Below, piece by piece: positions 1 through 59,464 of a stretch of DNA of 64,000 nucleotides. Source of the stretch: Paenacidovorax caeni. GTDB taxonomy: Bacteria > Pseudomonadota > Gammaproteobacteria > Burkholderiales > Burkholderiaceae_C. The notes beneath the pieces are model-generated. The model made no database searches. It was not told the origin of the DNA and saw only the letters and a program-made list of their open reading frames with translations. Made by a program: the position numbers and the translations under genes. The stretch lies in assembly GCF_001298675.1 (NCBI RefSeq), contig NZ_CYIG01000007.1, forward strand, positions 124,001 to 188,000. The letters run 5' to 3'. Each line of letters starts with the position of its first letter. The first letter of the stretch is position 1.

Positions 1-1074
1 GGTGCCAAGACGCTGTTCGAGTCGGTGCTGGCTGCGCGCAGCGTGCCCTGGGCGCGTACCGGGCTAGGCAAGGTGTATTTCCACCAGGGCCAGTACGAGA
101 TGGCACGCAACCAGTTCCGCCAGGTGCTGGAGGAAAACCGCATGTTCATCGAGGCCGCCGACTGGCTCGCCAAGACCTACGACGCCATGGGAGACAAGCC
201 CCAGGCCCAGCAGGTGTTGCAGGCTGCCGTGAAGCTCTCGCCCAACTCGGCCTATCGCCAGCGGGCCCTGGGTGAGACGGCGTTGCGCAATGGCGCACTC
301 GACGTGGCGCAAAGCGCGTTTGAGAAGACCATCCAGATCAGCGAGTTCTCATCCAATAAGCACCCCGCCGCGTACGTGGCGCTGGCGCGCGTGCTGTCCG
401 AAAACGACAACCCGGAAGAAGCGCTGAAGCTGCTCAAGCGCACCAACGAGGTGTTCAAGGACAGCAAGGACAGCGTCAACATCGCCATCCAGGCCGCCGC
501 CGTGCAAAGTGCCGTGCACCACAAAGCGGGGCAGGCGGAAGAAGCGCAGGCCGCCATGGCGCAGGTCGAGGCGCTGTTGGCCAGCCATGCCGACAAGGCC
601 AGCCCGCAGACCGCGATGGAAGTTGCCCAGAGCATGCTGGCCCTGGGCCGCAAGGAGCAGGCCTGTGCGCTGATGCGCAACCTGGTGAAGTCGAACCATG
701 AGGACACGCAGCTCTCTGGCCAGGTGCAGGCGCTGTTCGAGCAGGCGCAGATGGGCGAGGAGGGGCGCGCGCTCATCGCCGAGTCGCGTGAGGAGGCCAT
801 CAGCATCAATAACCAGGGCGTGCTGCTGGGGCGCCAGGGCCAGTTCGCTGAAGGGGCGCGGTTGCTGCGCATCGCGCTGCAGAACCTGCCGCACAGTGAG
901 GTCATGATGATGAACCTGTGTGGCCTGCTGATTGGGCAGATGCGTGCCGAGGGGCGCTCTGACGCCCTGCTGGCCGAGATCATGGGCCTGCTTGAGCGTG
1001 TGCACGAGATCAACCCCGACAACGCCAAGTACCGCCAGTACATGGCGCTGCTGCGGCCCGCAGGCGGGCGTTGA
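1..1074 (+). CDS. TPR-repeat protein, 5'-truncated by window edge
   Basis: The open frame runs in from base 1 without a start, so this is the C-terminal part (at least 357 residues) of a longer protein. It is built of helical pairs with tetratricopeptide spacing: alternating Ala/Leu/Gly helices, for example around residues 15-50 (GLGKVYFHQGQYEMARNQF), and again near the C-terminus (NNQGVLLGRQGQFAEGARLL). TPR domains mediate protein-protein contacts. In related betaproteobacteria a protein of this kind often carries an N-terminal response-regulator receiver domain; that part lies outside the window, so this is inference. The gene is convergent with hemL, and only a copy of the dispersed repeat separates the two. 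Confidence 0.75.
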   Translation, partial: GAKTLFESVLAARSVPWARTGLGKVYFHQGQYEMARNQFRQVLEENRMFIEAADWLAKTYDAMGDKPQAQQVLQAAVKLSPNSAYRQRALGETALRNGALDVAQSAFEKTIQISEFSSNKHPAAYVALARVLSENDNPEEALKLLKRTNEVFKDSKDSVNIAIQAAAVQSAVHHKAGQAEEAQAAMAQVEALLASHADKASPQTAMEVAQSMLALGRKEQACALMRNLVKSNHEDTQLSGQVQALFEQAQMGEEGRALIAESREEAISINNQGVLLGRQGQFAEGARLLRIALQNLPHSEVMMMNLCGLLIGQMRAEGRSDALLAEIMGLLERVHEINPDNAKYRQYMALLRPAGGR

Positions 1075-1076
1075 GC

Positions 1077-1136
1077 GCTTAATGAGCTTCCAGCGCTTTT
1101 GTAGCAAGCGCTAGATGCTCTTATATTGATAGCATC
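1077..1136 (-). repeat. Dispersed hairpin repeat, copy 1
   Basis: Copy 1 of a roughly 55-60 bp element found eleven times in the window. Its core is AGCGCTT-N7-AAGCGCT (1092-1112), a perfect stem-loop, flanked here by GATGCT...AGCATC arms. It fills the junction between the convergent TPR and hemL genes and encodes the last residues and the stop codon of hemL. Confidence 0.85.
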
Positions 1137-7327: not shown

Positions 7328-13528
<6,201 letters not shown>

Positions 13529-16141: not shown

Positions 16142-16149
16142 GGACTCCT

Positions 16150-16200
16150 GTTTTCATAGCTGCTAGCGCTTGATTGGTAAGGGCTAGCGGCCAATTTGGC
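16150..16200 (+). repeat. Dispersed hairpin repeat, copy 2
   Basis: This copy fills the gap between pyrB and pyrC'. The left arm AGCGCTT is intact (16165-16171), but the right arm is degraded to AAGGGCT. The trailing CCAATTTGGC forms a small palindrome of its own. Confidence 0.75.
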
Positions 16201-16208
16201 TTGAAACC

Positions 16209-17501
16209 ATGAAAATCCTGATTGAGAACGGCCGGGTCATCGACCCCGCCAGCGGGCTGGACAAGGTGTGCAGCGTGGCCCTTGCCGCGGGGCGCATCAT
16301 CGCCGTGGACCGCCAGCCCAAGGACTTCGCGCCCGCGCGCGTCATCGACGCCACGGGCTGCATCGTGCTGCCGGGCCTGGTGGACCTGGCCGCGCGCATG
16401 CGCGAGCCGGGGCATGAGCATGAGCGCATGCTCGAATCGGAAATGGCCGCTGCTGTCGCCGGGGGCGTGACCAGCCTGGTCTGCCCGCCCGACACCGACC
16501 CCGTGCTCGACGAGCCCGGCCTGGTGCAAATGCTCAAGTTCCGCGCCGAGAAGCTGCACCAGGCACGCCTGTTCCCCCTCGGGGCACTCACGCGCAACCT
16601 GGCGGGCGAGGTATTGACCGAGATGGCCGAGCTGACCGAGTCGGGCTGCGTCGGCTTCGGCCAGGCCGACGTGCCGCTGGCCAGCACGCAGACGCTGCAG
16701 CGCGCGTTGCAGTACGCCGCCACCTTTGGCTACACCGTATGGCTGCGCCCGCAGGAGCTGCACCTGGGCAAGGGTGTGGCCGCCAGCGGTGCGCTGGCGA
16801 CGCGCATGGGCCTGTCGGGCGTGCCGGTGGCGGCCGAAACGATTGCGCTGCACACCATTTTCGAGCTGCTCAAGAGCACCCAGGCGCGCGTGCACCTGTG
16901 CCGCCTCTCCAGCGCGGCCGGGGTCGAGCTGGTGCGCCAGGCCAAGGCCGCCGGCCTGCCAGTGACCTGCGACGTCAGCATCAATTCGCTGCACCTGACG
17001 GAGAACGATATCGGCTACTTCGACAGCAGTGCACGCCTGACGCCGCCGCTGCGCCAGCAGCGCGACCGCGACGCGCTGTCGCAGGCGCTGCGCGACGGCA
17101 CCATCGATGCGCTGGTGTCCGACCACACGCCGGTGGACGAGGACGCCAAGGCACTGCCGTTCGCCGAGGCCGAGCCCGGCGCCACCGGGCTGGAGCTGCT
17201 GCTGGCGCTGGCCTTCAAGTGGTCGCAGGATCAGGGTGTGCCGCTGGCGCGCGCGCTGGCCGTGGTGACCAACGAGCCCGCGCGCGTGCTGGGCAACGCG
17301 CTGGGCACGCTGCAGGCCAGCGTGGGCCAGATCGTCGAGGGCGGCGTGGGCGACCTGTGCATCGTCGATCCGCAGGCCGCCTGGGTGGTGCGCCCTGACG
17401 CGCTGACCAGCCAGGGCAAGCACACGCCCTTTGCCGGCTACGAGCTGCCGGTGCGCGTGCGCGCCACGCTGGTTGGCGGGCACGTCGCCTTCGAGCGCTA
17501 A
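16209..17501 (+). CDS. pyrC': Dihydroorotase-like, probably inactive PyrC' (PyrX)
   Basis: A 430-residue amidohydrolase-fold protein clearly homologous to type I dihydroorotase (DATGCIVLPGLVDL, REPG, LTENDIGYF, SDHTPVDEDAK, EPARVLG). The metal-binding HxH that should follow GLVD is replaced by LAARM. The later histidines also differ: VHLCRLSS where active enzymes have a His-containing segment, and DVSINSLHL in place of the PHH-type motif. With these ligands gone, hydrolysis is not expected. The known precedent is the Pseudomonas pyrBC' operon, where the non-catalytic subunit is needed for PyrB assembly. An active dihydroorotase should be encoded elsewhere in the genome. Confidence 0.9.
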   Translation: MKILIENGRVIDPASGLDKVCSVALAAGRIIAVDRQPKDFAPARVIDATGCIVLPGLVDLAARMREPGHEHERMLESEMAAAVAGGVTSLVCPPDTDPVLDEPGLVQMLKFRAEKLHQARLFPLGALTRNLAGEVLTEMAELTESGCVGFGQADVPLASTQTLQRALQYAATFGYTVWLRPQELHLGKGVAASGALATRMGLSGVPVAAETIALHTIFELLKSTQARVHLCRLSSAAGVELVRQAKAAGLPVTCDVSINSLHLTENDIGYFDSSARLTPPLRQQRDRDALSQALRDGTIDALVSDHTPVDEDAKALPFAEAEPGATGLELLLALAFKWSQDQGVPLARALAVVTNEPARVLGNALGTLQASVGQIVEGGVGDLCIVDPQAAWVVRPDALTSQGKHTPFAGYELPVRVRATLVGGHVAFER

Positions 17502-17509
17502 GCCAGCGC

Positions 17510-18256
17510 ATGCGCCTTTTGCGCGCCCTGGGGCGCACGCTGCGTATGCTGGCGCACCTGCTGCACGGGCTGTGGGTGGTCACATGGCACTTTCCGCGCC
17601 TCTCGCCTGAGCAGCAACAGGCCCGGGTGCAGGCCTGGTCGCTGGGGCTGCTGGCGCGCGCCGGCATCACGCTGCAGGTGCAAGGCACGCCGGTGCTGCA
17701 GGGGCCGGCACTGCTGGTGGCGAACCACATTTCGTGGCTCGACATCCCGGTGCTGCACGCGGCGCGCTATTGCCGCTTCGTCTCCAAGTCAGACGTGCAG
17801 GCCTGGCCCGTCGTCGGCACCCTGGCCACGGCCGGCGGCACGCTCTACATCCAGCGCGAATCGCGGCGCGATGCGCTGCGCATGGTCAAGCGCATGGCGG
17901 CGGCGCTGCAGCAAGGCGAGGTACTGGCCGTGTTCCCCGAGGGCACCACGGGCGACGGGCGCACGCTGCTGCCGTTCCACGCCAATTTGCTGGAGGCCGC
18001 GCTGGCGGCCGATGCGCCGGTGCAGCCCGTGGGGCTGCGCTTCATTGACCGTGCCACCGGGGCGACGAGCTTCGCACCCAGCTACATCGGCGACGAAACT
18101 TTGATCGGCTCGATCTGGCGCACGCTCTCCGCCCCCGCCATCACCGCCGTGGTGCACTTTGGCCCGCCCGAGCACGCCCAGGGCCGCGAGCGGCGCGCTT
18201 GGAGCGCGCACCTGCATGGCGTCGTCGATGCGCTGCGCCAGGTTGATTGCTCTTAA
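17510..18256 (+). CDS. plsC: 1-acyl-sn-glycerol-3-phosphate acyltransferase
   Basis: A 248-residue membrane-associated lysophosphatidic acid acyltransferase for phospholipid synthesis. The catalytic HX4D motif is NHISWLD (about residues 71-77), and the substrate motif is FPEGTTGDGRTLLPF (about 143-157). An N-terminal hydrophobic stretch (LGRTLRMLAHLLHGLWVVTW) anchors it. Some LPLAT-family members of this type acylate other substrates such as ornithine lipids, so the substrate is inferred. It follows pyrC' after 8 nt. Its last codons and stop (CTC TTA A) lie in the next copy of the dispersed repeat. Confidence 0.88.
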   Translation: MRLLRALGRTLRMLAHLLHGLWVVTWHFPRLSPEQQQARVQAWSLGLLARAGITLQVQGTPVLQGPALLVANHISWLDIPVLHAARYCRFVSKSDVQAWPVVGTLATAGGTLYIQRESRRDALRMVKRMAAALQQGEVLAVFPEGTTGDGRTLLPFHANLLEAALAADAPVQPVGLRFIDRATGATSFAPSYIGDETLIGSIWRTLSAPAITAVVHFGPPEHAQGRERRAWSAHLHGVVDALRQVDCS

Positions 18257-18303
18257 AAAAATAGCTGCCAGCGCTTGCCTGTAAAGCGCTGGAAGCCCAA
18301 AAG
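18247..18303 (+). repeat. Dispersed hairpin repeat, copy 3
   Basis: This copy lies between convergent plsC and the ABC ATPase gene. The core CAGCGCTT-N6-AAAGCGCTG is preceded by ATAGCTGC and followed by GAAGCCCAAAAG. It supplies the plsC stop codon. Confidence 0.85.
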
Positions 18304-18311
18304 ACTGTGAA

Positions 18312-19379
<1,068 letters not shown>

Positions 19380-26576: not shown

Positions 26577-26636
26577 GCCGGCCGGGAATTGTAAGGGCAG
26601 GCTTGGGTGTGCGACGGTACCTTCTTTTGCTCTGCT

Positions 26637-26687
26637 TTTGATAGCTGCTTGCGCTTGCCTATAGAGCCTTGTAGGGCATTTTTGCCC
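26637..26687 (+). repeat. Dispersed hairpin repeat, copy 4
   Basis: A diverged copy between the tRNA gene and tamB: TTTGATAGCTGCTTGCGCTTGCC is recognisable but the right stem arm is degraded. It ends in GGGCATTTTTGCCC, a short stem with a T-run directly before the tamB stop. Confidence 0.7.
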
Positions 26688-29600
26688 TCAGTCGTAGCGC
26701 ACCGTGTAGACCAAATCGAGCGCGCTCACCAGCCCTGTCTGCCCGCGCAGCGTGAGACGGCGCGAGAGATCGTAGAACACGTACAGCGTGCCGAGCGTGC
26801 CCGAGAGGCTGTGTTCGTAGGTCACGTACAGCGCAGACGAAATGCGCTTGCCCAGGGTCAGCGCGGCGGCGCTGGCGTCTTCGCCCTGGCGCGGGCCCTT
26901 GATGCCGATTTCGTCCAGCCCCAGGCTGCGCGAGAGGCCGCCCGTGCCCCCGCCCTGGCGGCCCAGCACGGCGAGCGCCGCCTGCTGCAGCAAAGCGGCT
27001 TCGCTGCCACCGCTGGCGGCGCTGTGGCCCAGCACCACCCATGAGAGCTTTTCGGCATCGGGCAGCTCCGGATCGGCATACAGGCGCACGCGTGGCGCCT
27101 GGGCCGAGCCGGTGACCTGCACCCCTGCGCGCACCGAGATGTTGGGGCGGATGGCCAGGATGTCGAGCGCCGGGTTGTCGTACGGACCGTTGAAGCGCAC
27201 CAGGCCGCTCTCCACGTCCAGTGCCTGGCCCCAGGCGCGGTAGCGGCCTTCCTCAGTGCGGATCTCGCCGGTCACGCGCGGCTGGCCGCCGGTGGCGGCG
27301 CTGGCGCGAATCTCCAGCGTGCCGGTCAGCCGCGTGGTGATGCCTTGGCCTTGTAGGGCGAAGTCGTCGCCCAGGTTCAGGGTGACGGCAATGTCGGGCG
27401 GACGCGCTGCCTGCACGCGGGGGCCGCTTTCCGGGGTGGCCGCTGGGCTGTCGGGGCGCGCACGGCTGCGTACCACCACGTCGTTGCCCAGGCGCGGGGC
27501 GCTGCTGTCGGGCAGGAGGATGGCGGCACGGTCGGCGGTGAGCTGGCCGCGCAGCGTGAACTGGCCCTGCGCCAGCCGCGCCTGCAGCGGGCCTGAGATG
27601 CTGACTTGCCGGTCGGCGCGCACCTGCACCTGCAGGCGCTCGGCCTGGGCGCGCAGGTCCATGCTGATGCCCTCGGCCGCGCTGGCGCCGGCGGCAGGCG
27701 GGCGCCATTGCACCACGCCGCTGGCGGTGAGCAGGCCGCCGTCCTGCGGTGCCTCGGTGCGGTTGCCGCTGCGCCCCAGGATGCGCGCGGCGTTGCCCTT
27801 GCCACCGGCCACGCGCAGCTCGTCGATGGTGAGCTGCGTGCCATCGAGCGTGGCGCGCAGGCGGCCGTCCTTCAGATCCACGCCGTCGATGACCGAGCGC
27901 AGTGCGAACTGTTCGGCCCCCAGCTGCCCGTGCCAGCGCGGATCGGCGCGCGTACCCGACAGCTGCACGTCGGCGTCCAGCGTGCCCTGCACGCGCCAGC
28001 CGGGTGGCGCCATGGCCGACCACACCCCCAGCTCCGGCAACTGGGCCTTCACTCTGGCGGCGAGCGGGGCGTTCTCGGGCCAGCGTGTCTCGCTCCAGCG
28101 CCCGGCGGGGATTTGCAGGGTGCTGCTGCCCTCGGCCTGCAGGCGCCCGGCGCGTGCGCTGTCCCACAGCACGGCGGCGCGCAGGCGCTCGCCCTGGAGC
28201 TCCAGCTCTATCTGTGCTGCCTGCAGGCCCGCTGCCGCGCCCGCCTGCTTGCCCAGCGTGGCAGGCGCATTGCCGCTGCTGCGCACGGTGGTCGTGCCGG
28301 CGCTGTCGATGGCCAGCAGACGCAGCTCGCCGCTGGCGCGGCGCAGCGTGGCGCGGGCGCGCAGGGTGTCCAGAGCCTGCACGTCCCAGCTGCCTTCGAG
28401 CACCACGTCGCCGGCCAGGCCGGTGCGCTCCAGCAGTGCGGGCTGGCGCGTGTCGAAGGCATCGGCCCAGGCCAGGGGCAGGTCGCGCAGCGCGCCGCGT
28501 GTTTGCAGGCGCATGGCGCCCTGCGGGGTCTGGCTCCACTGCGCGGCCTGCCACTGCAGCTGGGCCTGGCCGGGCAGCGGGCCGGTAATCCGGGCCTCTC
28601 CGGCCGAGGCCTCCAGCGCCAGGCCGGTGCGCGGGTGCTGGCGCAGCGTCAGCGCCAGCGGCTGGGCCAGCTGCACAGCCCAGGGGCCGGGCCGGTTGCC
28701 GTCGCGTGCCTGGGCCTGGAATTCGCTCAGCTGCAGTCCCCAGGCGCCGGCGCCCTGGTGCCCACCCTGGGCGCGGGCGCGCAGCTGCAGCTGCTGCGCG
28801 CCGCTGCGCACGCGGCCATCGAGGCTGGCTTGCAGCTGGGGCAGCGAGCCCGAGAGCTGGGCGCGCAGGTCTTGCAGCTGCAGGTCAATGGCGCCCTGGC
28901 CGGCGCTGGCAGGCTGGGCCAGCGTGAGCTGTGGGGCGGCCAGTTCAGCCTGCAGCGTGAAGGCGCTTGGGGCGCCTGCTTCGGGCGGCGTGGCGACCAG
29001 GCCGGCGCTGTGCAACTGGCGCTGCAGGCCCTCCCAGCCGCCGCTCCAGCGCGCGTCCAGGCGGGCCTGGCCTTGCAGGCGCGCGCCGGGCAGTAGCGTT
29101 CCCAGGCCGGGCAGGGCGGCCAGCCAGTCGCGCGTGCGCTGCGGCGTGTCGAGCTGCACGCGCGCCTCGCCCGTGCCGGCGCGCGGCCCCAGGCGGCCCT
29201 GCACCTGGGCGCTGGCGCCGGGTACGGTGAGCTGCAGGGTGCCGTCGAAGGCGCGCGCGGCAGTGTCGATGCGCAGGTTGCGGCCCTCGGCCTGGGCCTG
29301 CAGGGCCTGTACCTGCAGCTGCTGCAACTGCAGCACCGGGGCGTGCCAGCGGCCCTCGGCGCGCACCTGGTCGATGCGCAGGGTGTCGGCGGCGCGCGCG
29401 GTTTTCTCGCCCCGCAGGTCGATGTGGAACTGCACGGCCGCATCGCTGCCCTGGCGCGCGCTCAGGTGGCCTTGCACGGGCTGGCGGTCCAGGGTGCTGT
29501 AGAGGTCGCTGGGGCGCAGGCCGTGCACCTCGGCCTGGCCCTCCACGGTCTGCGTGGCGGGCGTGTAGCGGCCTTGCAGGGTGATACGGCCGTCACCCAG

Positions 29601-30680: not shown

Positions 30681-30740
30681 GCTTCAAAAAAAGGAGCTTC
30701 TGGCGCTTGCTGCATAAGCGTTAGAAGCCAATTTGGCTTA
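30681..30740 (+). repeat. Dispersed hairpin repeat, copy 5
   Basis: This copy occupies the tamA-tamB gap, in the orientation opposite to the genes. The core is TGGCGCTTGCTGCATAAGCG followed by TTAGAAGCCAATTTGGC. The tamA stop codon falls in its last bases. Confidence 0.8.
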
Positions 30741-32651
30741 AAAGTTGAAACCCAGGCGCAGGTGCAGGCGCAGGCGCTTGTCCTGCACGCCCCAGGCCAG
30801 GTCGGTCTGCAACGGGCCCACGGGACTGTTCCAGCGCAGGCCCGCACCCACGCCGACCTTGGCCTGGATACTGCCCAGGTCGTCGGTCACGGCGCCGGCG
30901 TCGATGAACACGGCGCTCTCCCAGTGCGTCAGGTCGCCCCGGATGGCGATAGGGCGCTGCCACTCGGCGCTGGCCACGCCCATGTAGCGCCCGCCGTAGA
31001 GCGTGCCGCTGCTGGTGGCCGCGCCAATGGCGCGGTAGCCGTAGCCGCGCACCGTGGTGTCGCCGCCGGTAATGAACAGCTGGCTGGCGGGCACGGCCGC
31101 ATCGGCGCGCGCCAGCACCGCGCCGCCCTCGGCGCGCAGGGCCAGGCGGGCGTTGCGCTGCACGGCGCTGCTGTCGGCACCGCTGCCCACGGCCACCTTG
31201 CCCAGTGGAATGAACGACTGCCAGCGCACCCGCGTGCGCACGAAGGGGTTGCGCTGATTGCGCAGCGTGGTGCCCACGCCCAGCTCCAGGCCCAGGCCGT
31301 AGCCGCGCGTGGGGCTGTTGTTGTTGTTGAAGTAGCGCGCGGTCCAGCCGAAGTTGGCGCTCAGCGCGCCGCTGGAGTCGGGCGCGTCGATGCCGTGGGG
31401 CGTGGCACTGTCGTACTGCAGGTAGTAGTTGCGGTCAATGTGGCCCAGGGTCTGGCTGGTGCCACCGCGCAGCTGCACGCTGTTCACGTCGTAGCTGCCC
31501 ATGACTTCGCGCTTGACCTGGCCGGCGCCGAACCAGCGCCAGCTGTCGTCGTCGGGCAGCGAGACCCATTCGCTGTCGAGCGACTGGGTTTCGCGGTCCA
31601 GCGCGGCCTTGGTGGTGGCACGCCAGCCGAGCCAGGGCAGGCGGTTGTTGATGTGGTTGGCCGACAGGCGCGCACCGCTGTCGGTGGAAATGCCGGCGCC
31701 GAACACCAGCTTGTGCAGCTTGGCCTCGCTCACCTGGGCGATGACGGGCGTGGCCTCGGGCGGGCCGTTCTCGGTGTCGAGCGTGAGGAACACGGTGTCG
31801 TAATAGCCGCTGCTGGCCAGGCGCTGCTGGGCGTCGAGCAGCTCGGCCTCGGAGTAGCCGGCGCCCGTGGGCAGCCGGGCAATGCGGCGCGCGCCGTCGG
31901 GGTCGTAGCGCTCGTTGCCGCGCAGTTGCAGCGGGCCAAAACGGTAGGCCGGGCCGGTGTCGTAGGTCACGTCCAGGGCCGCCTGGGCGGTGTCGGGGTC
32001 GATGTCGGCACGGCTGTCGGCCAGCCGTGCCGTGGGGTAGTCGCGCTCCTGCAGGCGGCGCAGCCCCTGGGTCTTGGCGTTGTCCCAGGCGCTCTGGGTG
32101 AACGTCTGGCCAGGCGGCAGCGCCCAGCTGCGCTCCACGCGCGACTGGCGGCGGCTGAACTCGTCGGCCTGCGCGCCGCTGCCGGTGAAACCGATGTGCG
32201 CGCTGGCCACCGTGGTTTGCGGTCCAGGCTCCACGGCCACCTGCACGGTGCGCGGGGCGTGGCTACCCGCGGGGGCGGTGCGGCTTTCGATGGTGATGTC
32301 GGGGCTGAAGTAGCCCTGGGTGCCCAGCAGCGTGCGCACGTCGGCCTCGGCGGCCACCAGCAAGCGCGAGAGTTCGCTCGGCTGCAGGTCGCCCAGGCGG
32401 GTGTAGCGGCGCAGCTCCATGTTCTGCTCCAGCAGCTCGCGCAGGCCGTCGGGTGCCTGCACCTGCAGCGTGAAGGCCGGCGCTTCATCGGCGGGCGGGG
32501 CGCTGGCGGCTGCGGGGGCTTCTTCTTGTGGTGCGCCCGGCAGCAGGCTGCAGCCGCCGAGAAGCAGGCTGGCGGTGAGCAGCGGCAGCAAGGGGCGCTG
32601 CAGAAAGTGCAACGCCGACCGGAAGGTCGGCGTTGGGCGCGAACGTGGCAT
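30738..32651 (-). CDS. tamA: Outer-membrane Omp85-family protein TamA
   Basis: A 637-residue Omp85 barrel protein: three N-terminal POTRA domains (about 60-300) and a 16-stranded C-terminal barrel ending in LRLHLRLGFNF, the usual terminal aromatic signal. The barrel insertion motif region is TRGYGLGLELGVG, and FITGGDTTVRGYGY contains the VRGY/F sequence diagnostic of the family. It partners TamB. The N-terminus has a signal segment PLLPLLTASLLLGGC that fits a lipobox with cysteine 34, so the protein may be lipidated. The start ATG 32651 lies 5 nt after the VWA gene stop; a much longer upstream open frame overlaps that gene and is not credible. Confidence 0.92.
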   Translation of the reverse strand: MPRSRPTPTFRSALHFLQRPLLPLLTASLLLGGCSLLPGAPQEEAPAAASAPPADEAPAFTLQVQAPDGLRELLEQNMELRRYTRLGDLQPSELSRLLVAAEADVRTLLGTQGYFSPDITIESRTAPAGSHAPRTVQVAVEPGPQTTVASAHIGFTGSGAQADEFSRRQSRVERSWALPPGQTFTQSAWDNAKTQGLRRLQERDYPTARLADSRADIDPDTAQAALDVTYDTGPAYRFGPLQLRGNERYDPDGARRIARLPTGAGYSEAELLDAQQRLASSGYYDTVFLTLDTENGPPEATPVIAQVSEAKLHKLVFGAGISTDSGARLSANHINNRLPWLGWRATTKAALDRETQSLDSEWVSLPDDDSWRWFGAGQVKREVMGSYDVNSVQLRGGTSQTLGHIDRNYYLQYDSATPHGIDAPDSSGALSANFGWTARYFNNNNSPTRGYGLGLELGVGTTLRNQRNPFVRTRVRWQSFIPLGKVAVGSGADSSAVQRNARLALRAEGGAVLARADAAVPASQLFITGGDTTVRGYGYRAIGAATSSGTLYGGRYMGVASAEWQRPIAIRGDLTHWESAVFIDAGAVTDDLGSIQAKVGVGAGLRWNSPVGPLQTDLAWGVQDKRLRLHLRLGFNF

Positions 32652-33844: not shown

Positions 33845-33849
33845 GGTTT

Positions 33850-33905
33850 ATGCATGTTTTTGGCCTTCAGGGCTTATCCAGCAAGCGCTGCAAGCTCCTG
33901 AAGGT
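33850..33905 (-). repeat. Dispersed hairpin repeat, copy 6
   Basis: On the minus strand this reads GCAGCGCTTGCTGGATAAGCCCTGAAGGCC then AAAAAC. It overlaps the 3' end of the GNAT gene and encodes its last residues and stop codon. The right stem arm is partly degraded. Confidence 0.75.
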
Positions 33906-34476
33906 ATAGCAGCTGAGCACGCGCCTCGGGCCATTCGCCGCTGCGCATGCTGTACATCACGGTGTCGCGGATGGTGCCGTCGCGGCGCAGCGCGTGGCCG
34001 CGGATGACGCCGTCTTTCGTGGCGCCCAGGCGCTCGATGGCGCGCTGGCTGGCGAAGTTGAAGTTGTCCGTGCGCCAGCCCACCACGTGGCAGCCCAGCG
34101 TGTCGAAGGCGTGGCCCATCATCAGCAGCTTGGCCGTGGTGTTCACATGGGTGCGCTGGGCACTCAGGGCGTACCAGGTGTAGCCGATCTCGACGCGGCG
34201 CACGGCGGGCAGGATGTCATGGAAGCTGGTGGAGCCGAGTACGCGGTCCGTGGTGTCCTCGATCACGGCGAAGGCGAAGCGATGGCCCTCGGCGCGCATC
34301 TGCAGCGCGGTCTCGATGTAGGCGCGCGTTTCCTGCGGCGTGGGCACCGAGGTGATGCGCAGGCGCCACAGCTCGCCATCGGCGGCGGCGGCGGCCAGGC
34401 CCGCTTCGTGTTCGAGTTCCAGCGGCTCCAGGCGTACGCCGTTGGCGCGCAGGGTGACGGGTTCCACGAAAGCCAT
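33874..34476 (-). CDS. GNAT-family N-acetyltransferase (RimJ/RimL type)
   Basis: A 200-residue acetyltransferase of the Acetyltransf_3 type. The N-terminal LRANGVRLEPLELEHEAGL strand-helix, FAVIEDTTDRVLGSTSFHDI, EIGYTWYALSAQRTHVNTTAK with the acetyl-CoA loop, and FASQRAIERLGATKDGVIRGH match the RimJ/RimL family, which modifies ribosomal or other protein N-termini or small amines. ATG 34476 has AAGGAG at good spacing; a TTG two codons earlier overlaps the preceding stop. The C-terminal eight residues and the stop are encoded by a dispersed repeat copy. Confidence 0.88.
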   Translation of the reverse strand: MAFVEPVTLRANGVRLEPLELEHEAGLAAAAADGELWRLRITSVPTPQETRAYIETALQMRAEGHRFAFAVIEDTTDRVLGSTSFHDILPAVRRVEIGYTWYALSAQRTHVNTTAKLLMMGHAFDTLGCHVVGWRTDNFNFASQRAIERLGATKDGVIRGHALRRDGTIRDTVMYSMRSGEWPEARAQLLYLQELAALAG

Positions 34477-36339: not shown

Positions 36340-36499
36340 GAACGTGTGAACGAATTCGCCATGCCCGCTCATCACGCCAAAACACGCCCCCTCGGCGTTG
36401 CAAATGCTCGCCATAGCACAAGCTATGGCTGCGCTTTGCGCCTTGATGGGCCGCGTTGTGGCGCGCTGCTCGGCCACGCCGGATTCATTCACACGTTCT
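36339..36499. mobile_element. Putative MITE: 161-bp palindromic element
   Basis: Terminal inverted repeats AGAACGTGTGAACGAATTC (36339-36357) and its near-complement at 36481-36499 enclose a sequence that keeps mirroring itself inwards to an exact 8-bp stem GCCATAGC-ACAA-GCTATGGC at 36410-36429. The centre of that stem is also the centre of the element, so the entire 161 bp can fold into one imperfect hairpin. No transposase is encoded. The left end starts on the last base of the cytochrome c stop codon. Size, symmetry and lack of coding capacity fit a MITE; a large structured RNA is the alternative. Confidence 0.65.
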
Positions 36500-40080: not shown

Positions 40081-40140
40081 GATGCTATCGTTTGAATAGC
40101 TGCTGGCGCCTGATCCGTGGGCGCCAGGGGTACTTTTGGC
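40081..40140 (+). repeat. Dispersed hairpin repeat, copy 7
   Basis: Located between the divergent Kef and LysE genes. Its stem has changed to TGGCGCC...GGCGCCA where other copies have TAGCGCTT...AAGCGCTA; both arms changed together, so base pairing is kept. The leading GATGCTATC is intact. Confidence 0.85.
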
Positions 40141-40191
40141 ATACCATCTTGCCCTTGCCTATTCTTCGCCTGTTTGGCGCTGCGTTTTGCC

Positions 40192-40830
40192 ATGGACCTG
40201 CACACCTGGATCGCCTTCTTCGCTGCCTGCTGCCTGATCGCCATTTCGCCTGGGTCGGGCGCGGTACTGTCCATGAGCCACGGCCTGTCGTTCGGTGTAC
40301 GCCGCACCAGCGCCACCATCCTGGGGCTGCAGCTGGGGCTGCTGCTCATCCTGCTGGTGGCTGGGGCGGGGGTGGGCTCGCTGCTGCTGGCGTCAGAGAC
40401 GGCGTTTTCCCTCGTCAAGGTGCTGGGCGCGTGCTACCTCATCTACCTGGGCTGGATGCAGTGGCGCGCCGGCGCTGCCGCGCCGCTGCTGGGCGAGCAG
40501 GCCGAGCCGGCGGGGTCGTGGCAAAAGCGCTGCCTCACAGGCTTCCTGACCAACGCCACCAACCCCAAGGGCATCATCTTCATGGTGGCGGTGCTGCCGC
40601 AGTTCATGACCGAGGCGCGTCCGCTGTGGCTGCAGCTGCTGGTGATGGCCGTCACCATGCTGAGCGTGGATGTGGTGGTGATGCACGGCTACGCTGCCGG
40701 GGCCAGCGCCATGCGCCGCCTGCTGCGCAGCGCCCAGGCCGTGCGCACGCAGAACCGCGTGTTTGGCGGCCTGCTCATGGCCGTGGGCGCGGGGCTGTTC
40801 TTCGTCAAGCGCGGCGGCGAGCATGCTTGA
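40192..40830 (+). CDS. LysE/RhtB family amino-acid exporter
   Basis: A 212-residue inner-membrane protein with five to six hydrophobic helices. Family marks are the N-terminal FFAACCLIAISPGSGAVLSMSHGLSFG (shown in part: AISPGSG), LGACYLIYLGWMQWR, and FLTNATNPKGIIFMVAVLPQF. RhtB-type proteins expel homoserine, threonine or related compounds; the substrate here is unknown. The ATG at 40192 begins just before the first helix. The stop codon TGA is in the first bases of the next dispersed repeat. Confidence 0.9.
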   Translation: MDLHTWIAFFAACCLIAISPGSGAVLSMSHGLSFGVRRTSATILGLQLGLLLILLVAGAGVGSLLLASETAFSLVKVLGACYLIYLGWMQWRAGAAAPLLGEQAEPAGSWQKRCLTGFLTNATNPKGIIFMVAVLPQFMTEARPLWLQLLVMAVTMLSVDVVVMHGYAAGASAMRRLLRSAQAVRTQNRVFGGLLMAVGAGLFFVKRGGEHA

Positions 40831-40882
40831 TTTTTCATAGCGCCTGGTGCTTGCTGCGCGCGCGCTGGAGGCCATTTGGGCC
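40825..40882 (+). repeat. Dispersed hairpin repeat, copy 8
   Basis: A diverged copy between the LysE and parA genes: TTTTTCATAGCGCCTGGTGCTT then CGCGCTGGAGGCCATTTGGGCC. It starts at the LysE stop codon. Confidence 0.7.
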
Positions 40883-40912
40883 ATGAACGGATGAATTCCA
40901 AAGGAGGTCGAT

Positions 40913-42102: not shown

Positions 42103-42112
42103 TACGCGCTAG

Positions 42113-42172
42113 CTACTTCTTTAATAGCTGCTAGCGCTCTCCAGTAAAGCGCTAGAGGCATTTTTTGTTCTT
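42113..42172 (+). repeat. Dispersed hairpin repeat, copy 9
   Basis: Between convergent MaoC and trmL. The core CTAGCGCTCTCCAGTAAAGCG is followed by CTAGAGGCATTTTTTG, so on the plus strand it has hairpin plus T-run and should act as an intrinsic terminator for the MaoC gene. The trmL stop lies at its edge. Confidence 0.85.
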
Positions 42173-42641
42173 AATCTGGCATGGCGAAGCCGTTTTGCCG
42201 CCAGGCCTCGAACACCGTTACCGCCACGGCGTTGGACAGGTTCAGGCTGCGCTGGCCCGCCACCATGGGCAGGCGCAGGCGCTGGCCGGGCGCGAAGGTC
42301 TCGCGCAGCGCGGGCGCCAGACCGCGTGTCTCGGCGCCGAAGACCAGCCAGTCGCCGGGCTGGAAGGCCGTGGCATGCACCGGCTGGGCACCGTGCGTGG
42401 TCATGGCAAACATGCGCGCCGGGTCGGGCCGTGCATCACGCAGGAAGCTCGGCCAGTCGGCGTGGCGCAGCACGCGCGCGGTCTCGTGGTAGTCCAGTCC
42501 GGCGCGGCGCAGCAGGCGGTCTTCCATCGAAAAGCCCAGGGGCTCGACCAGGTGCAGGGCGCAGCCCGTGTTGGCGGCCAGCCGGATGACGTTGCCGGTG
42601 TTCGGCGGTATTTCGGGTTCAACCAGGACGATGTGGAACAT
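42171..42641 (-). CDS. trmL: tRNA (cytidine/uridine-2'-O-)-methyltransferase TrmL
   Basis: A 156-residue SPOUT methyltransferase that modifies the wobble base of tRNA-Leu isoacceptors. Motifs are VLVEPEIPPNTGNVIRLAAN at the N-terminus, LVFGAETRGLAP in the middle and the C-terminal trefoil-knot motif RSLNLSNAVAVTVFEAWRQ. The ATG at 42641 begins directly at the conserved domain; a longer open frame upstream is not similar to the family. It lies downstream of comF on the same strand after a 195-bp gap in which I see nothing distinctive. Confidence 0.95.
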   Translation of the reverse strand: MFHIVLVEPEIPPNTGNVIRLAANTGCALHLVEPLGFSMEDRLLRRAGLDYHETARVLRHADWPSFLRDARPDPARMFAMTTHGAQPVHATAFQPGDWLVFGAETRGLAPALRETFAPGQRLRLPMVAGQRSLNLSNAVAVTVFEAWRQNGFAMPD

Positions 42642-48379: not shown

Positions 48380-49261
48380 ATGAGTGCAAGCACCCCCGGC
48401 GCAACGCCGCACTACTACGTGCCCGCCGACTCCCGCCACCCCATCATGGCGGCGGGCGGCCTGTTCTTCGTCATCCTTGGCGCCACCATGTGGATCAATG
48501 GCCACGGCTGGGGCGCATATTCGCTGGCCTTGGGGCTGGCGTGGTGGCTGTTCGTGCTGTTCCAGTGGATGCGCGACGCCGCGCGCGAGAGCGAGGGCGG
48601 CCTGTACGGCCGGCGCATTGACCTGTCGTACCGCTGGAGCATGAGCTGGTTCATCTTCTCAGAGGTCATGTTCTTCGGCGCCTTCTTCACGGCCTTGTGG
48701 TGGGCACGGGCGCACTCGGTGCCGCAGCTCGCCAGCCTTGACAACGCGCTGCTGTGGCCCGACTTCAAGGCCGTGTGGCCAAGCAACGGCGTGGGCGTGA
48801 CGGCGTCGCCCGCGGGCATCGTCGAGCCGTTCCAGACCGTGGGGCCGCTGTGGCTGCCGACCATCAACACCGCGCTGCTGCTGACTTCGGGCGTCACCCT
48901 CACCATCGCCCACCACGCGCTGCGGCTGGGCCAGCGTGCACGCACCATCGGCTTCATGTGGGTGACGGTGCTGCTCGGCGCCGCTTTCCTGGTTCTGCAG
49001 GCCTATGAGTACCACCACCTCTATACCGCGCTGAACCTCAAGCTCAGTTCGGGCGTCTTCGGCTCCACCTTCTTCATGCTCACCGGCTTCCACGGCTTCC
49101 ACGTCTTTCTGGGCATGCTGATGCTGCTGTTCATCACGCTGCGCCTGCACAGCGGCCATTTCACTGCGCAGCGCCACTTTGGCTTCGAGGGGGCTGTGTG
49201 GTACTGGCACTTCGTCGATGTGGTGTGGCTGGGGCTGTACCTGCTGGTGTATTGGTTGTGA
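48380..49261 (+). CDS. coxC: Cytochrome c oxidase subunit III
   Basis: A 293-residue, seven-helix subunit. Typical text: YYVPADSRHPIMAAGGLFFV, RWSMSWFIFSEVMFFGAFF, YEYHHLYTALNLKLSSGVFG, FFMLTGFHGFHVFLG and WYWHFVDVVWLGLYLLVYWL at the C-terminus. It stabilises the core and supports proton uptake. It follows DUF2970 after 23 nt. A dispersed repeat begins 2 nt after its stop. Confidence 0.97.
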   Translation: MSASTPGATPHYYVPADSRHPIMAAGGLFFVILGATMWINGHGWGAYSLALGLAWWLFVLFQWMRDAARESEGGLYGRRIDLSYRWSMSWFIFSEVMFFGAFFTALWWARAHSVPQLASLDNALLWPDFKAVWPSNGVGVTASPAGIVEPFQTVGPLWLPTINTALLLTSGVTLTIAHHALRLGQRARTIGFMWVTVLLGAAFLVLQAYEYHHLYTALNLKLSSGVFGSTFFMLTGFHGFHVFLGMLMLLFITLRLHSGHFTAQRHFGFEGAVWYWHFVDVVWLGLYLLVYWL

Positions 49262-49263
49262 AA

Positions 49264-49320
49264 CTCCTTTTTTGATAGCTGCTAGCGCTTGTCTGGTAAG
49301 CGCTGGAGGCTGTTTTTGCT
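49264..49320 (+). repeat. Dispersed hairpin repeat, copy 10
   Basis: The best-preserved copy: TTTTTTGATAGCTGC, perfect stem TAGCGCTTGTCTGGTAAGCG closing with CT, then GGAGGCTGTTTTTGCT. It lies between coxC and the SURF1 gene. The stem plus T-run could attenuate transcription into the assembly genes. Confidence 0.9.
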
Positions 49321-49333
49321 AGTATCCAGTCGC

Positions 49334-50062
49334 ATGCTTCACACTGTCTCTGCGCGCTGGCGTTTTGCCCTGGTCACGGGCGCTGCCCTGGCGGGGGTGC
49401 TGGCCACGGCGTCCCTGGGGTTCTGGCAGCTCGACCGGGCGGCGCAGAAGGAGGCCCTGCAAGCCGCCATGGACGCGCGCGAGCAGCAGGCGCCTTTGGA
49501 TGGCGCAGCTGCCATCGCGGCGCTGGCGCCGTCAGAGCGGCTGCACCGCGCCGTGTACCTGCAGGGCCGCTGGCAGGCAGAACACACGGTGTACCTGGAC
49601 AACCGGCAGATGCACGGGCGGCCTGGCTTTTACGTGCTCACGCCGTTGCGGCTTGACCCCGGCCCTGGCGTGGTGCTGGTGCAGCGCGGCTGGATTGCGC
49701 GCGACTTCCAGGAGCGCACGCGCCTGGCGCCGGTGGAGACGCCTCCCGGCCTGGTGCGCATCGCCGGGCGCGTGGCTGGCGCGCCCTCGCGCCTGTACGA
49801 CTTCGCGCCAGCCGCAGCGGAGCCAGGGTCTTCGCCCATCCGGCAGAATCTCGACCTTGATGCCTTTCGCGCCCGCACCGGGCTGGATCTGGCGCCCTGG
49901 ACCGTCGTGCAGACAGGCGCGCCCAGCGAAGGGCTGCTGCGCGACTGGCCGTCCGTGGGGTCGGGCGTGCACAAGCACTACGGCTACGCATTCCAATGGT
50001 TCGGGCTTTGCGGCCTGATGGCACTGCTTTATGTCTGGTTCCAATTCGTCCGACGCGCTTGA
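49334..50062 (+). CDS. SURF1 family cytochrome oxidase biogenesis protein
   Basis: A 242-residue protein with an N-terminal and a C-terminal membrane helix and a periplasmic domain between, as in SURF1/Shy1, which aids haem a insertion into subunit I. Family features: GFWQLDRAAQKEALQ after TM1, VYLDNRQMHGRPGFYVLTPL, VLVQRGWIARDF, and the C-terminal HYGYAFQWFGLCGL. The start is ATG 49334, right after a dispersed repeat. The last 32 nt overlap the next gene. Confidence 0.93.
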   Translation: MLHTVSARWRFALVTGAALAGVLATASLGFWQLDRAAQKEALQAAMDAREQQAPLDGAAAIAALAPSERLHRAVYLQGRWQAEHTVYLDNRQMHGRPGFYVLTPLRLDPGPGVVLVQRGWIARDFQERTRLAPVETPPGLVRIAGRVAGAPSRLYDFAPAAAEPGSSPIRQNLDLDAFRARTGLDLAPWTVVQTGAPSEGLLRDWPSVGSGVHKHYGYAFQWFGLCGLMALLYVWFQFVRRA

Positions 50063-51907: not shown

Positions 51908-52800
51908 GTGCCGTTGCTTCCCCGTCGCCGCCTTCGCGGCTGTCCCAGTTCTACGTGCTGACCAAGCCGCGGGTGGTGCAACTCATCGTTTTCTGTGCCT
52001 TCATCGGCATGGTGCTGGCCGTGCCTGGCATGCCGACGGGCGCCCAATGGGGGCACATGGCACTGGCCAGCCTGGGCATTTGGTTGGTGGCCGGGGCAGC
52101 GGCGGCATTCAACTGCCTGGTGGAGCGTGGCATCGACGCACGCATGAAGCGCACCGCCTGGCGCCCGACCGCGCGGGGCGAACTGACGAGCCTGCAGGCC
52201 CTGGCGTTCTCTGGTCTGCTGTGCGTGGCTGGCTCGGCTTTGCTGTACTGGACAGTCAACCCGCTGACCATGTGGCTCACGCTGGCCACGTTCATCGGCT
52301 ACGCGGTGGTCTACACCGTGGTACTCAAGCCGTTGACGCCGCAGAACATCGTCATTGGCGGCGCCTCCGGGGCCATGCCGCCGGTGCTCGGCTGGGCCGC
52401 CATGGCGGGGGAGGTGGGGCCCGAGGCGCTGATCCTGTTCCTCATCATCTTCCTGTGGACGCCGCCGCATTTCTGGGCCCTGGCGCTGTACCGTGTCGAG
52501 GACTACCGCAAGTCCGGCTTGCCCATGTTGCCGGTGACGCATGGGAACGAATTTACGCGGCTGCAGGTCTTTCTCTACACCTTGATCCTGTTCGCGGGCT
52601 GCCTCATGCCTTTTGTGTATGGTATGAGTTCGTGGATCTACCTCGCGGCAGCGGTGCTCCTGGGCTTGGGCTTCTGCGGTTACGGCTTCGCGCTGTGGCG
52701 CAGGTATTCCGATACGCTGGCGCGCAAGACTTTCCGTTTTTCCCTGATCCACCTGAGCCTGCTCTTTGCGGCGCTGCTGGTGGACCATTACGTTCTGTGA
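51904..52800 (+). CDS. ctaB: Protohaem IX farnesyltransferase (haem O synthase)
   Basis: A 298-residue UbiA-family prenyltransferase that adds farnesyl to haem B to give haem O, the substrate of CtaA. The prenyl-diphosphate motif is [20 protein letters not shown] (about 79-98), the second motif is [19 protein letters not shown], and [13 protein letters not shown] lies between them. About nine helices. Start ATG 51904 overlaps the ctaA stop (ATGA), so both haem-modifying enzymes are translationally coupled. Confidence 0.97.
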
Positions 52801-52812
52801 TGTTGGAGTGGC

Positions 52813-53424
52813 ATGCTCAAACGCGATGCTCTTAGATTGATAGCTGGTTGCGCTTTATCCATAAGCGCTGTAGCCATTTTGGCTGCATGTTCTGAAAAGA
52901 AAGCGCAGTTCCGCGGCGTTGACGTAACGGGCGCGGACTACGCCCGCGACTTGCCGCTGCCGGACCACAATGGCCAGATGCGCAGCCTGCGCGACTTCCG
53001 TGGCAAGGCCGTGGTGGTGTTCTTTGGCTACACCCAATGCCCGGACGTGTGCCCCACCTCGCTGCAAGAACTGGTCGAGGCCAAGCAGTTGCTGGGTGCT
53101 GATGGTGAGCGGCTGCAGGGCGTTTTCGTCACCGTAGACCCTGAGCGCGATACTGCCGAGATGCTCAAGGCCTACATGGCCAACTTCGACCCCAGCTTCT
53201 TGGCGCTGCGCGGCTCGCCCGAGCAGCTCGCTGCCGTGGCCAAGGACTTCAAGGTTTACTACAAGCGCGTCGAGGGCAAGACGCCCACCAGCTACACCAT
53301 GGACCACTCGGCTGGCAGCTACATCTACGACCCGGCCGGGCGGCTGCGCGTGTACCACCGTTACGGCAGCGGCTCTCAGGCATTGGCGGAGGATGTGCGC
53401 ACGCTGTTGCGCGAGACGCCGTAA
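52813..53424 (+). CDS. SCO1/SenC copper chaperone lipoprotein
   Basis: A 203-residue thioredoxin-fold copper chaperone for the CuA site of subunit II. The copper ligands are C76 and C80 in TQCPDVCPTS and H165 in YTMDHSAG. The N-terminus is a lipoprotein signal with lipobox ILAAC, Cys26. Strikingly, residues 5-25 of that signal are encoded by a copy of the dispersed repeat. ATG 52813 has GGAG upstream, and no alternative start downstream would keep a signal. The stop codon TAA lies inside the A-tract that, on the other strand, is the U-tract of the rpoH terminator. Confidence 0.95.
   Translation: MLKRDALRLIAGCALSISAVAILAACSEKKAQFRGVDVTGADYARDLPLPDHNGQMRSLRDFRGKAVVVFFGYTQCPDVCPTSLQELVEAKQLLGADGERLQGVFVTVDPERDTAEMLKAYMANFDPSFLALRGSPEQLAAVAKDFKVYYKRVEGKTPTSYTMDHSAGSYIYDPAGRLRVYHRYGSGSQALAEDVRTLLRETP
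52825..52886 (+). repeat. Dispersed hairpin repeat, copy 11, inside SCO1
   Basis: GATGCTCTTAGATTGATAGC, then TGGTTGCGCTTTATCCATAAGC, GCTGTAGCCATTTTGGCTGC: all consensus blocks are present, including the stem GCGCTT-N7-AAGCGC (52850-52868). It is in frame inside the SCO1 gene and encodes its hydrophobic signal segment. Confidence 0.88.
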
Positions 53425-58906: not shown

Positions 58907-59464
58907 TTACGGCTTGCCGCCGGTGGGGAAGGGCCACTTGGCTTGAGGGTTGAGCGTGGTCTGCACGGCAGGAGCGGCTGGTGCCGCCTTGGCTACTGGC
59001 TTGGCGGCGGCTTTCTTCGTTGCCGGGGCTTTTTTCGTGGCGGTACTGGCCTTCGCGGCTACCTTTTTGGTTGCAGGTGCGGTGGCTTTCTTGGCGGGTG
59101 CGGCCGCTTTATTTGCAGCTGTAGGCGCGGCCTTCTTGGCGAGGGTGGCCTTTTTTGCGGGGGCTACGGCCGCTTTTTTCGCGGGCGCAACCGCTGCCTT
59201 CTTGGCGGGAGTGGCAGCCTTGGCTTCTTGCGGTGTGGCTGCTACCGCTTTCTTGGCGGCGGGAGCGGCTTTTTTTGTCGCTACTGTTTTGGCCGGTGCA
59301 GCGGCTTTCTTAGCGGGTGCTGCGGCCTTCTTGGCGGGTGCTGCGGCCTTGGTAGCCGGCGCGGCCTTTTTTGCGGCTACGGTCTTCTTGGCCGGTGCCT
59401 CGGTGGCTGTGGCCTTCTTGGCGGGTGCGGCTTTTTTGGCGGCCGGCTTCTTTGCAGTTGCCAT
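58907..59464 (-). CDS. Histone H1-like DNA-binding protein
   Basis: A 185-residue, almost entirely Lys/Ala/Pro/Thr/Val protein built of tandem AAKKAAPAKK-like units, resembling the C-terminal tail of eukaryotic H1 and the betaproteobacterial H1/HC2-like proteins (AlgP-like). The end LNPQAKWPFPTGGKP is the only non-repetitive part and is typical of the group. It should bind DNA non-specifically and compact the nucleoid or tune expression. AGGAGACC precedes ATG 59464. A 13-bp perfect hairpin lies 60 nt upstream and an intrinsic terminator follows. Repeat number probably varies between strains. Confidence 0.9.
   Translation of the reverse strand: MATAKKPAAKKAAPAKKATATEAPAKKTVAAKKAAPATKAAAPAKKAAAPAKKAAAPAKTVATKKAAPAAKKAVAATPQEAKAATPAKKAAVAPAKKAAVAPAKKATLAKKAAPTAANKAAAPAKKATAPATKKVAAKASTATKKAPATKKAAAKPVAKAAPAAPAVQTTLNPQAKWPFPTGGKP

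Follow-up and report, generated by a model that had tools for sequence, protein, structure and literature searches.

A dispersed palindromic repeat as the probable source of signal-peptide cores in SCO1 and other exported proteins of Paenacidovorax caeni and its relatives

The element described here is a palindromic repeat of ~66 nt dispersed through a 64,000-nt stretch of Paenacidovorax caeni DNA (NZ_CYIG01000007.1, positions 124,001 to 188,000; we call this whole stretch the window and count coordinates within it), one copy of which lies in frame in the gene of SCO1/SenC, a presumed lipoprotein that handles copper. Its closest precedents are the Rickettsia palindromic elements (RPE), together with those of Wolbachia, and the RU-2 signal peptide of Yersinia. 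RPE are described as protein-coding palindromes of 105-146 bp (Ogata et al. 2000, as cited in PMC2229807, PMC2759123), and the likeness to our repeat is that short palindromic copies lie both between genes and in frame within unrelated genes, conserved enzymes included. For Yersinia, RU-2/YPAL in YPO1552 and RU-1f fusions are described, with a signal peptide in a putative exported protein and transmembrane segments predicted for other fusions (Delihas 2007, PMC2759123). Repetitive extragenic palindromic (REP) sequences share with our repeat a dispersed, palindromic and mostly intergenic character, near gene ends and with some copies within open reading frames (ORFs; PMC3733652). The beta-proteobacterial repeat element BRE, by its published description ~90 bp long, frequently in tandem, with a GC content of about 69% in Bordetella and occurring in Alcaligenaceae, is also known from Polaromonas, Rhodoferax, Acidovorax and Delftia, with some copies in coding sequence (PMC3110155).

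The repeat of the window is distributed much as RPE are: ten copies lie between genes or at gene ends and one lies in frame in SCO1, and 25 further gene instances were collected, one of them starting inside the repeat. It differs from RPE as described in that most coding copies found here are N-terminal putative signal peptides of exported proteins (which our search favoured), in that the hosts are GC-rich betaproteobacteria, and in length (~66 nt vs 105-146 bp), the two being likened by description and not by sequence. Unlike the published RU-2 cases, it concerns conserved families of exported proteins, of which a single genome has at least nine and several recur in more than one genus. Unlike REP sequences and their associated tyrosine transposases (RAYTs), its consensus, from 29 of the 30 best matches, carries at its ends no GTAG or CGTC tag as these are defined in PMC3733652. 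Identity with BRE was set aside on length, GC and arrangement, the comparison being with the published description (~66 nt, 41-61% GC and dispersed for our repeat); our repeat was also not seen in the sampled genomes of other families. The open-licence literature searched yielded no account of such a repeat in the family or of repeats as signal peptides that would fit it, and the available part of a Rhodoferax genome paper mentions CRISPR only, not this repeat. The kind of element is already known; what is new is how many conserved exported proteins it serves, how widely it occurs among genera and its tie to codon choice.

We propose that the core of the SCO1 signal peptide is probably an ancient in-frame copy of this palindromic repeat, which also supplied the signals of other exported proteins. 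The features of the SCO1 gene are as follows.

52813..53424, plus strand: SCO1/SenC lipoprotein gene, 203 aa, N-terminus MLKRDALRLIAGCALSISAVAILAAC... (ORF; Pfam SCO1-SenC, E 1.4e-44)
52828..52890, plus strand: repeat copy, codons 6-26 of SCO1, putative core of the signal peptide (covariance model, position weight matrix, recoding test)
52840..52846, plus strand: ATAGCTG block, with ATA GCT as Ile10-Ala11 (pattern search, codon columns)
52850..52855, plus strand: GCGCTT, 5' stem arm of the repeat hairpin (sequence reading, fold)
52863..52868, plus strand: AAGCGC, 3' stem arm of the repeat hairpin (sequence reading, fold)
52888..52890, plus strand: codon of Cys26, presumed lipidated, motif LAAC (translation; Cys26 invariant in 12 aligned orthologues)

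Against a covariance model (R1) built from the ten other copies of the window, the SCO1 copy aligned over model positions 1-66 with 34.7 bits (E 1.5e-7); it is 63 nt long against 66 in the model and is the lowest of the eleven window copies, the second-lowest scoring 58.7 bits. The first-pass annotation of this DNA had recognised an in-frame repeat copy encoding the signal core and had numbered it copy 11, both of which hold, but its extent needed correction: it had placed the copy at 52825-52890, as residues 5-25 with Cys26 just past its end, while the model places it from 52828 (codon 6) to 52890 and so takes in the Cys26 codon. Among the consensus blocks that it listed, ATAGCTG and the GCGCTT/AAGCGC arms are present; GTAGCCATTTTGGC differs from the consensus, which reads GGAGGCCAATTTGGC at that site when built from 29 of the 30 top matches in the genome. 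By reading, the N-terminus combines a KR n-region, a core hydropathy of 2.4 and LAAC, which we take to be a lipobox, as expected of a type II signal, and SCO1 is presumed on this ground to be a lipoprotein with a putative type II signal peptide. C76, C80 and H165, the CxxxC motif and conserved His whose role in SCO1 proteins is familiar, are invariant in the 12 aligned orthologues. A second SCO1 paralogue was seen elsewhere in the genome (G000:C43:8184-8693, 54% identity over residues 30-201).

The ten other copies of the window, scored in bits with R1, are these.

1068..1133, minus strand: between convergent genes, overlapping the gene ends by 7 and 13 nt (66.8 bits)
16144..16209, plus strand: filling the gap from a gene end at 16141 to a gene start at 16209 (70.8 bits)
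18249..18314, plus strand: between genes, with an overlap of a few nt with their ends (67.4 bits)
26629..26694, plus strand: between genes, one end overlapped by 7 nt (60.6 bits)
30681..30746, plus strand: between genes, one end overlapped by 9 nt (64.9 bits)
33845..33910, minus strand: between minus-strand genes, overlapping the called gene 33874-34476 by 37 nt at its 3' end (58.7 bits)
40084..40149, plus strand: intergenic (63.6 bits)
40825..40890, plus strand: between genes, one end overlapped by 6 nt (60.9 bits)
42112..42177, plus strand: between genes, one end overlapped by 7 nt, top score among the genome matches listed (73.7 bits)
49263..49328, plus strand: filling the gap from a gene end at 49261 to a gene start at 49334 (71.2 bits)

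All ten lie between genes, and their overlaps with gene ends are at most 13 nt except at 33845-33910 (37 nt), gene ends being taken from a home-made gene caller that misplaced the SCO1 start. The copy at 33845-33910 may encode a C-terminus of the minus-strand gene, and intergenic copies span nearly exactly from gene to gene (16141-16209, 49261-49334, 30680-30738), even between close co-directional genes. A position weight matrix (PWM) of 52 columns, made from 32 genomic copies with the SCO1 copy excluded, scored the eleven copies of the 64 kb at 37 to 75, SCO1 among them at 48 (47.9), and the next-best place at -5, with maxima of -12 to -18 in five 3-mer-shuffled windows. The P. caeni genome holds at least 150 matches, all with E 2.4e-8 or better, and the genome-wide consensus agrees with the copy; the SCO1 copy itself scores below these matches. 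GC content ranges from 0.41 to 0.61, and an Rfam scan of the window at the gathering score returned one tRNA only and no family for the repeat. The hairpin core is palindromic, with a mean of 12.19 of 13 pairs kept in the 32 copies (structure from R1, whose ten window copies are among the 32). These 32 copies were picked without regard to protein; 15 of them have sense frame 0 open, 8 have frame 2 open and none frame 1, and frame 0 when open is the most hydrophobic of the six (mean best 12-residue hydropathy 1.3, next 0.85). It reads roughly ALKxIAASAxxxSAGGxFG, that is A-(L/I)-K-x-I-A-A-S-A-(L)-x-x-(S/G)-A-G-G, which would come close to a complete signal peptide but for the start and the basic residues.

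When the SCO1 N-terminus was recoded with the gene's own codons, 0/1000 recodings reached 47.9 (maximum 6.6), nor did any of 1000 that drew on the pooled codons of repeat-type signals (maximum 33.8); therefore the match lies in the DNA, beyond the peptide. G+C at third codon positions (GC3) is 0.32 in SCO1 codons 2-26 vs 0.85 in the remainder of the gene, while GC3 spans 0.76-0.96 in the 11 further N-termini of signal or membrane type that 40 examined window genes contain; ATA occurs twice within the first 26 codons of SCO1 and in none of those 11. Among 36 repeat-type SCO1 orthologues (PWM > 15, register -60, criteria set after looking), Ile -16 is ATA in 34 signals vs 1/132 Ile codons in the remainder of these genes, and Ala -15 is GCT in 34 vs 32/581 Ala codons there. 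At four-fold sites, third-base identity amounts to 0.644 within the repeat segment vs 0.550 in the body (472 SCO1 pairs with body identity <80%). Protein constraint does not explain the rare codons kept in SCO1 signals, and selection on a DNA or RNA motif is the most likely cause of their conservation in the repeat-rich lineages. The hairpin as such gave a different picture. Pairing in SCO1 was above the pooled-codon null (0/1000) but showed no excess over column-wise permuted codons (9.50 vs 9.44 of 13 pairs, p 0.28), and separate selection on it is unsupported. The 63-nt copy alone is somewhat more stable than its shuffles (z -1.75, 10/200 shuffles equally stable), and the fold of the 93-nt mRNA 5' end is not unusually stable (z -0.75); the suggestion that the hairpin affects translation thus found no support.

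The SCO1 sample comprised 110 loci, from 30 genomes (own, same genus, same family) and 80 named loci, of which L016 and L091 are apparently one record counted twice. A repeat-type N-terminus (PWM >= -2.0) was present at 49/110 loci, all in frame 0 and with a register from the Cys codon of -60 nt in 43 and -69 nt in 6, while 769 windows of SCO1 bodies gave a PWM maximum of -16.3. The genera concerned include Acidovorax, Simplicispira, Alicycliphilus, Polaromonas and Rhodoferax, so the recent local event implied by the first-pass annotation does not fit. Own-codon recoding reached the score in 0/1000 for each of the 49 loci but L016 (1/1000). The nearest neighbour of an SCO1 copy was another SCO1 copy in 34/36 when the alternatives were the repeats of the P. 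caeni genome (G000) and of Acidovorax radicis, and therefore SCO1 copies look orthologous, not newly acquired. In the SCO1 tree, repeat-type and ordinary forms occur in several clades with at least 17 changes by parsimony; given the single register, one old origin followed by several losses would be the simplest reading.

In other families, the SCO1 signals of the 10 readable genes (of 15 loci) are unrelated and often shorter. Since these outgroup genes have signals of their own, the event looks like replacement of a signal core, and the term "birth" of a targeting signal, used for it before, is too strong. The same residues with other codons, an outcome that had been named as pointing to coincidence, do occur in L038, L047, L049, L009 and L012. 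L038, L047 and L049 branch within the repeat-rich Acidovorax-group clade with one repeat copy each, a pattern that fits recoding after repeat loss rather than coincidence. Acidovorax Root219, A. soli and CF316, with one repeat copy each inside the mostly repeat-rich Acidovorax-group clade, have in SCO1 the same residues KR(H/N)AL(R/K)xIAxG in ordinary codons.

Further genes were found by searching repeat-rich genomes with a protein profile of the SCO1 signals (frame 0), HupE being found with the DNA model. The profile gave 86 to 145 matches each in 12 repeat-rich genomes vs 13 or 14 in three repeat-poor ones. We read 70 places each of the 109 matches in G000 and the 143 in A. radicis (G068), namely 30 loci and 40 stretches picked for long stop-free frames, and the gene counts are lower bounds. 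In the genome of the window at least nine exported-type proteins have the frame-0 repeat as putative signal core, with Pfam identities of SCO1, GspD (L192), Peripla_BP_6 binding protein (L247), HupE/UreJ (L134), M16 peptidase (L277), LolA (L281), DsbD (L272), cupredoxin (L193) and polysaccharide deacetylase (L283). At least ten proteins of A. radicis start with the repeat: SCO1, GspD (L308), SIMPL (L301), M16 (L287), DsbD (L305), a copper-binding protein (L322), cupredoxin (L226), DUF1775 (L223), a chalcone-isomerase-like protein (L299, start codon within the repeat) and an ABC auxiliary lipoprotein (L298, repeat ahead of the hydrophobic core). An NMT1-like binding protein (L160) was added from G026. 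SCO1 is thus far from the unique case that it had first appeared to be. Cleavage-like motifs (AWA, ASA, AFA, AGA) often stand at or near the repeat end by eye. Own-codon recoding reached the score in 0/500 for 24/25 tested genes; for the 25th, L299, another place was scored since its start lies inside the repeat (PWM -35, 9/500). GC3 in the tested genes is 0.25-0.55 in the repeat segment vs 0.74-0.94 outside, and of 30 profile matches scored from the 41 in the three repeat-poor genomes, 26 were at -25 or lower. A repeat in frame just upstream of the start was also seen in L225, L197 and L275 (PssA-like, Mpl-like by eye, and Hsp70-like), which may be N-terminal extensions or mis-called starts.

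GspD, found in 26/30 genomes (not in G017, G037, G102 and G108, and with loci lacking the anchor in G018 and G103), carried the repeat in 14/14 scored repeat-rich genomes (PWM 27 to 72) and in 0/10 scored repeat-poor ones (-24 or lower). Its residues LHSIAAS are kept in other codons in G021 and G083, and A. soli, Root219 and CF316 have a different signal. The repeat is also found in frame inside genes, namely in the SrkA-like kinase (L250, L319, codon ~201), the CCA-adding enzyme (L248), SDR (L253, L325), M61 peptidase (L259) and ThiL (L296). For SrkA, an internal and cytosolic case scored at 28/29 loci (G018 lacked the motif), 14 repeat-bearing genomes scored 1 to 69, ten repeat-poor ones scored -38 or lower, and G030 scored 0. 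By eye, the repeat form is ~10 aa longer than SrkA of repeat-poor Acidovorax, with native residues matching one repeat end; the SCO1 and GspD comparisons yielded no clean empty site.

Repeat copy numbers are lower bounds, since the best 87, 106 or 26 candidates were scored per genome under strict filters that miss weak or diverged repeats, and those for the named loci cover 50 of 80, picked by eye with the SCO1 codons already seen and with L042 left out. Copy number correlates with the SCO1 PWM score across 79 genomes (Spearman 0.73), and GC3, considered as a confounder of this link, showed no correlation with that score (-0.01). At thresholds set after looking (>=3 copies, SCO1 score > -10), 39 genomes have repeats and a repeat-type SCO1, 29 have neither, seven have the SCO1 form only and four have repeats only. 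L020 (G022), L048, L053, L054 and L076 have a repeat-like SCO1 though genomic repeats were undetected, and a diverged repeat variant may exist there. In other families the repeat was found in 0/24 genomes (best 87 candidates scored per genome), and in an order-wide draw it was found in 2/200, our own and one of the same family (best 26 candidates scored per genome). In the genomes sampled the repeat is confined to the family of the window, Comamonadaceae by the names of the relatives. A Y1 (RAYT-like) transposase did not separate the two groups of genomes, Y1_Tnp being above the cut-off in 27/30, 15/15 repeat-rich and 12/15 repeat-poor. G018 had 18 Y1 matches, several of them identical, vs one to five in other genomes having any.

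The proposal is carried by the DNA identity with the repeat, the frame and register, the return of the pattern in several genera and genes, and the fact that SCO1 copies lie nearest to one another. What we infer is a function of the signal in export, insertion ahead of use, and the order of events in SCO1, as follows. Frame 0 of the repeat would have been a hydrophobic, small-residue stretch of the signal-peptide kind from the outset, and a copy inserted just downstream of an initiation codon plus a short basic n-region would have served for export immediately. For SCO1 the event would predate the split of the repeat-bearing genera, with an older signal core replaced, and the same event may have occurred in a dozen or so further exported proteins (GspD, LolA, DsbD, HupE, M16 peptidase, cupredoxin, substrate-binding proteins and others). 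Repeat-rich lineages keep the rare AT-rich codons of the copy, and repeat-poor ones mostly recode the peptide with ordinary codons or replace it.

Several observations weigh against this proposal. Searching with a frame-0 profile biases the frame and the signal preference among coding copies, and the export of these proteins is predicted from family, hydropathy and cleavage-like motifs. The antisense frames of the 32 copies are open in 16, 21 and 12, about as often as frame 0. Under the stricter null of codons pooled from repeat-type signals, only 29/49 SCO1 loci stay at <=10/1000. Four of the control matches score 60, 25, 22 and 6, of which the first is probably the single repeat of G077 and the remaining three may be remnants. 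The repeat is absent from SCO1 in four genomes that have 6 to 26 copies (Polaromonas OV174, Polaromonas Bin2_6, Comamonas Pcu381 and G005), SCO1 is repeat-like in seven that have 0 or 1 copy (L014, L020, L048, L053, L054, L063 and L076), and independent pairs on supported branches number 6, with ~3.6 in the same direction and ~0 opposite (median p 0.125), which is too few for significance. SrkA in the repeat-bearing G061, G102 and G108 scores -39 to -43 and has no repeat, and SrkA and the CCA enzyme are natively repeat-like at the site, which is unexpected for simple random insertion. Our confidence was also lowered slightly because the order-wide draw gave one genome besides our own, with few candidates scored.

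The alternative that survives best, though we think it unlikely, treats the repeat as a motif with a function in DNA or RNA that evolves in place: resembling coding stretches (signal peptides, A-L-x-x-I-A helices) would drift or be converted towards it under selection for the motif at those sites, with no insertion in these cases. E. coli SrkA natively has DELIAAVTAH at the repeat position, and in L248 the repeat overlaps TINA(I/M)A, a motif native to the CCA-adding enzyme, so both natively match the repeat peptide; these coding copies sit where the encoded peptide suits the protein, which may reflect either survivorship after insertion or evolution of the motif in place. The retention of rare codons far past the need of the protein, and the relatives poor in repeats that keep the residues in other codons, also speak for it. 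However, the greater length of SrkA with the repeat means that DNA was gained at least there, the match covers the whole model including the AT-rich flank and thus more than a core, and the readable outgroup SCO1 signals are unrelated.

Ongoing gene conversion, in which genomic repeats overwrite the SCO1 copy, would explain both the kept codons and their loss along with the repeats, and the SCO1 score does follow copy number; we regard it as improbable, since SCO1 copies are closest to each other in all but two of 36 cases (among the repeats of the two genomes compared) and the 3' arm has not been restored to consensus, codon -8 being GGC in 15/36 and the repeat-like AGC in only 9/36. Still further down stands the reverse direction, an escape of the repeat family from a signal-peptide gene such as SCO1. 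Frame 0 does resemble a signal peptide, but many other gene families carry the repeat in the same frame, the intergenic copies of the window fit the model far better than the SCO1 copy, the readable outgroup signals are unrelated, no repeat-free outgroup with repeat-like codons in SCO1 was seen, and a coding origin predicts neither the mostly or always closed other sense frames nor the palindromic copies; we give this reading very little credence. Chance resemblance of an ordinary signal peptide with AT-rich 5' codons is hardly tenable and is refuted at this sample: A, L, I and S are indeed rich both in signal peptides and in frame 0, and some orthologues have the same residues in ordinary codons, but the recoding tests of SCO1 and of 24/25 other genes, the GC-rich signal-like N-termini elsewhere in the window and the 26/30 low-scoring repeat-poor controls all speak against it.

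Upstream of SCO1 lies one further gene.

51955..52800 (start approximate), plus strand: presumably cyoE, protohaem IX farnesyltransferase-like (WTPPHFW motif in the ORF)

Its stop is 12 nt from the SCO1 start. The window also holds an inverted repeat at a called gene's end (36339-36499), with 55-nt arms that are 76% complementary and separated by 51 nt, degenerate coding-type repeats of families D2 and D7 that are Ala/Lys-rich on the minus strand by eye (59048-59447), and a short tandem GCCAGA repeat within a large gene (10450-10527).

The observation that the repeat serves as signal in SCO1 is real, old and general. It offers a concrete and testable case in which non-coding repeats become working targeting signals for many conserved exported proteins in several genera of one family. 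What keeps REP-like elements in place is a long-open question, and the linked fate of synonymous codons and repeat family lets one ask what maintains a dispersed bacterial repeat at its sites. In these genomes, one has to know the repeat in order to read where genes start and which codons they use near the start. Further, we tentatively suggest, at somewhat less than even confidence, that the repeat acts as a signal peptide that is portable and ready for use. A non-coding element found throughout the family would have supplied the signals of many envelope proteins, its DNA or RNA function would still be under selection in their genes, and the signals would be recoded or replaced once a partner of the element is lost. 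If this is true, export signals and a genome-wide repeat would share one conserved sequence.
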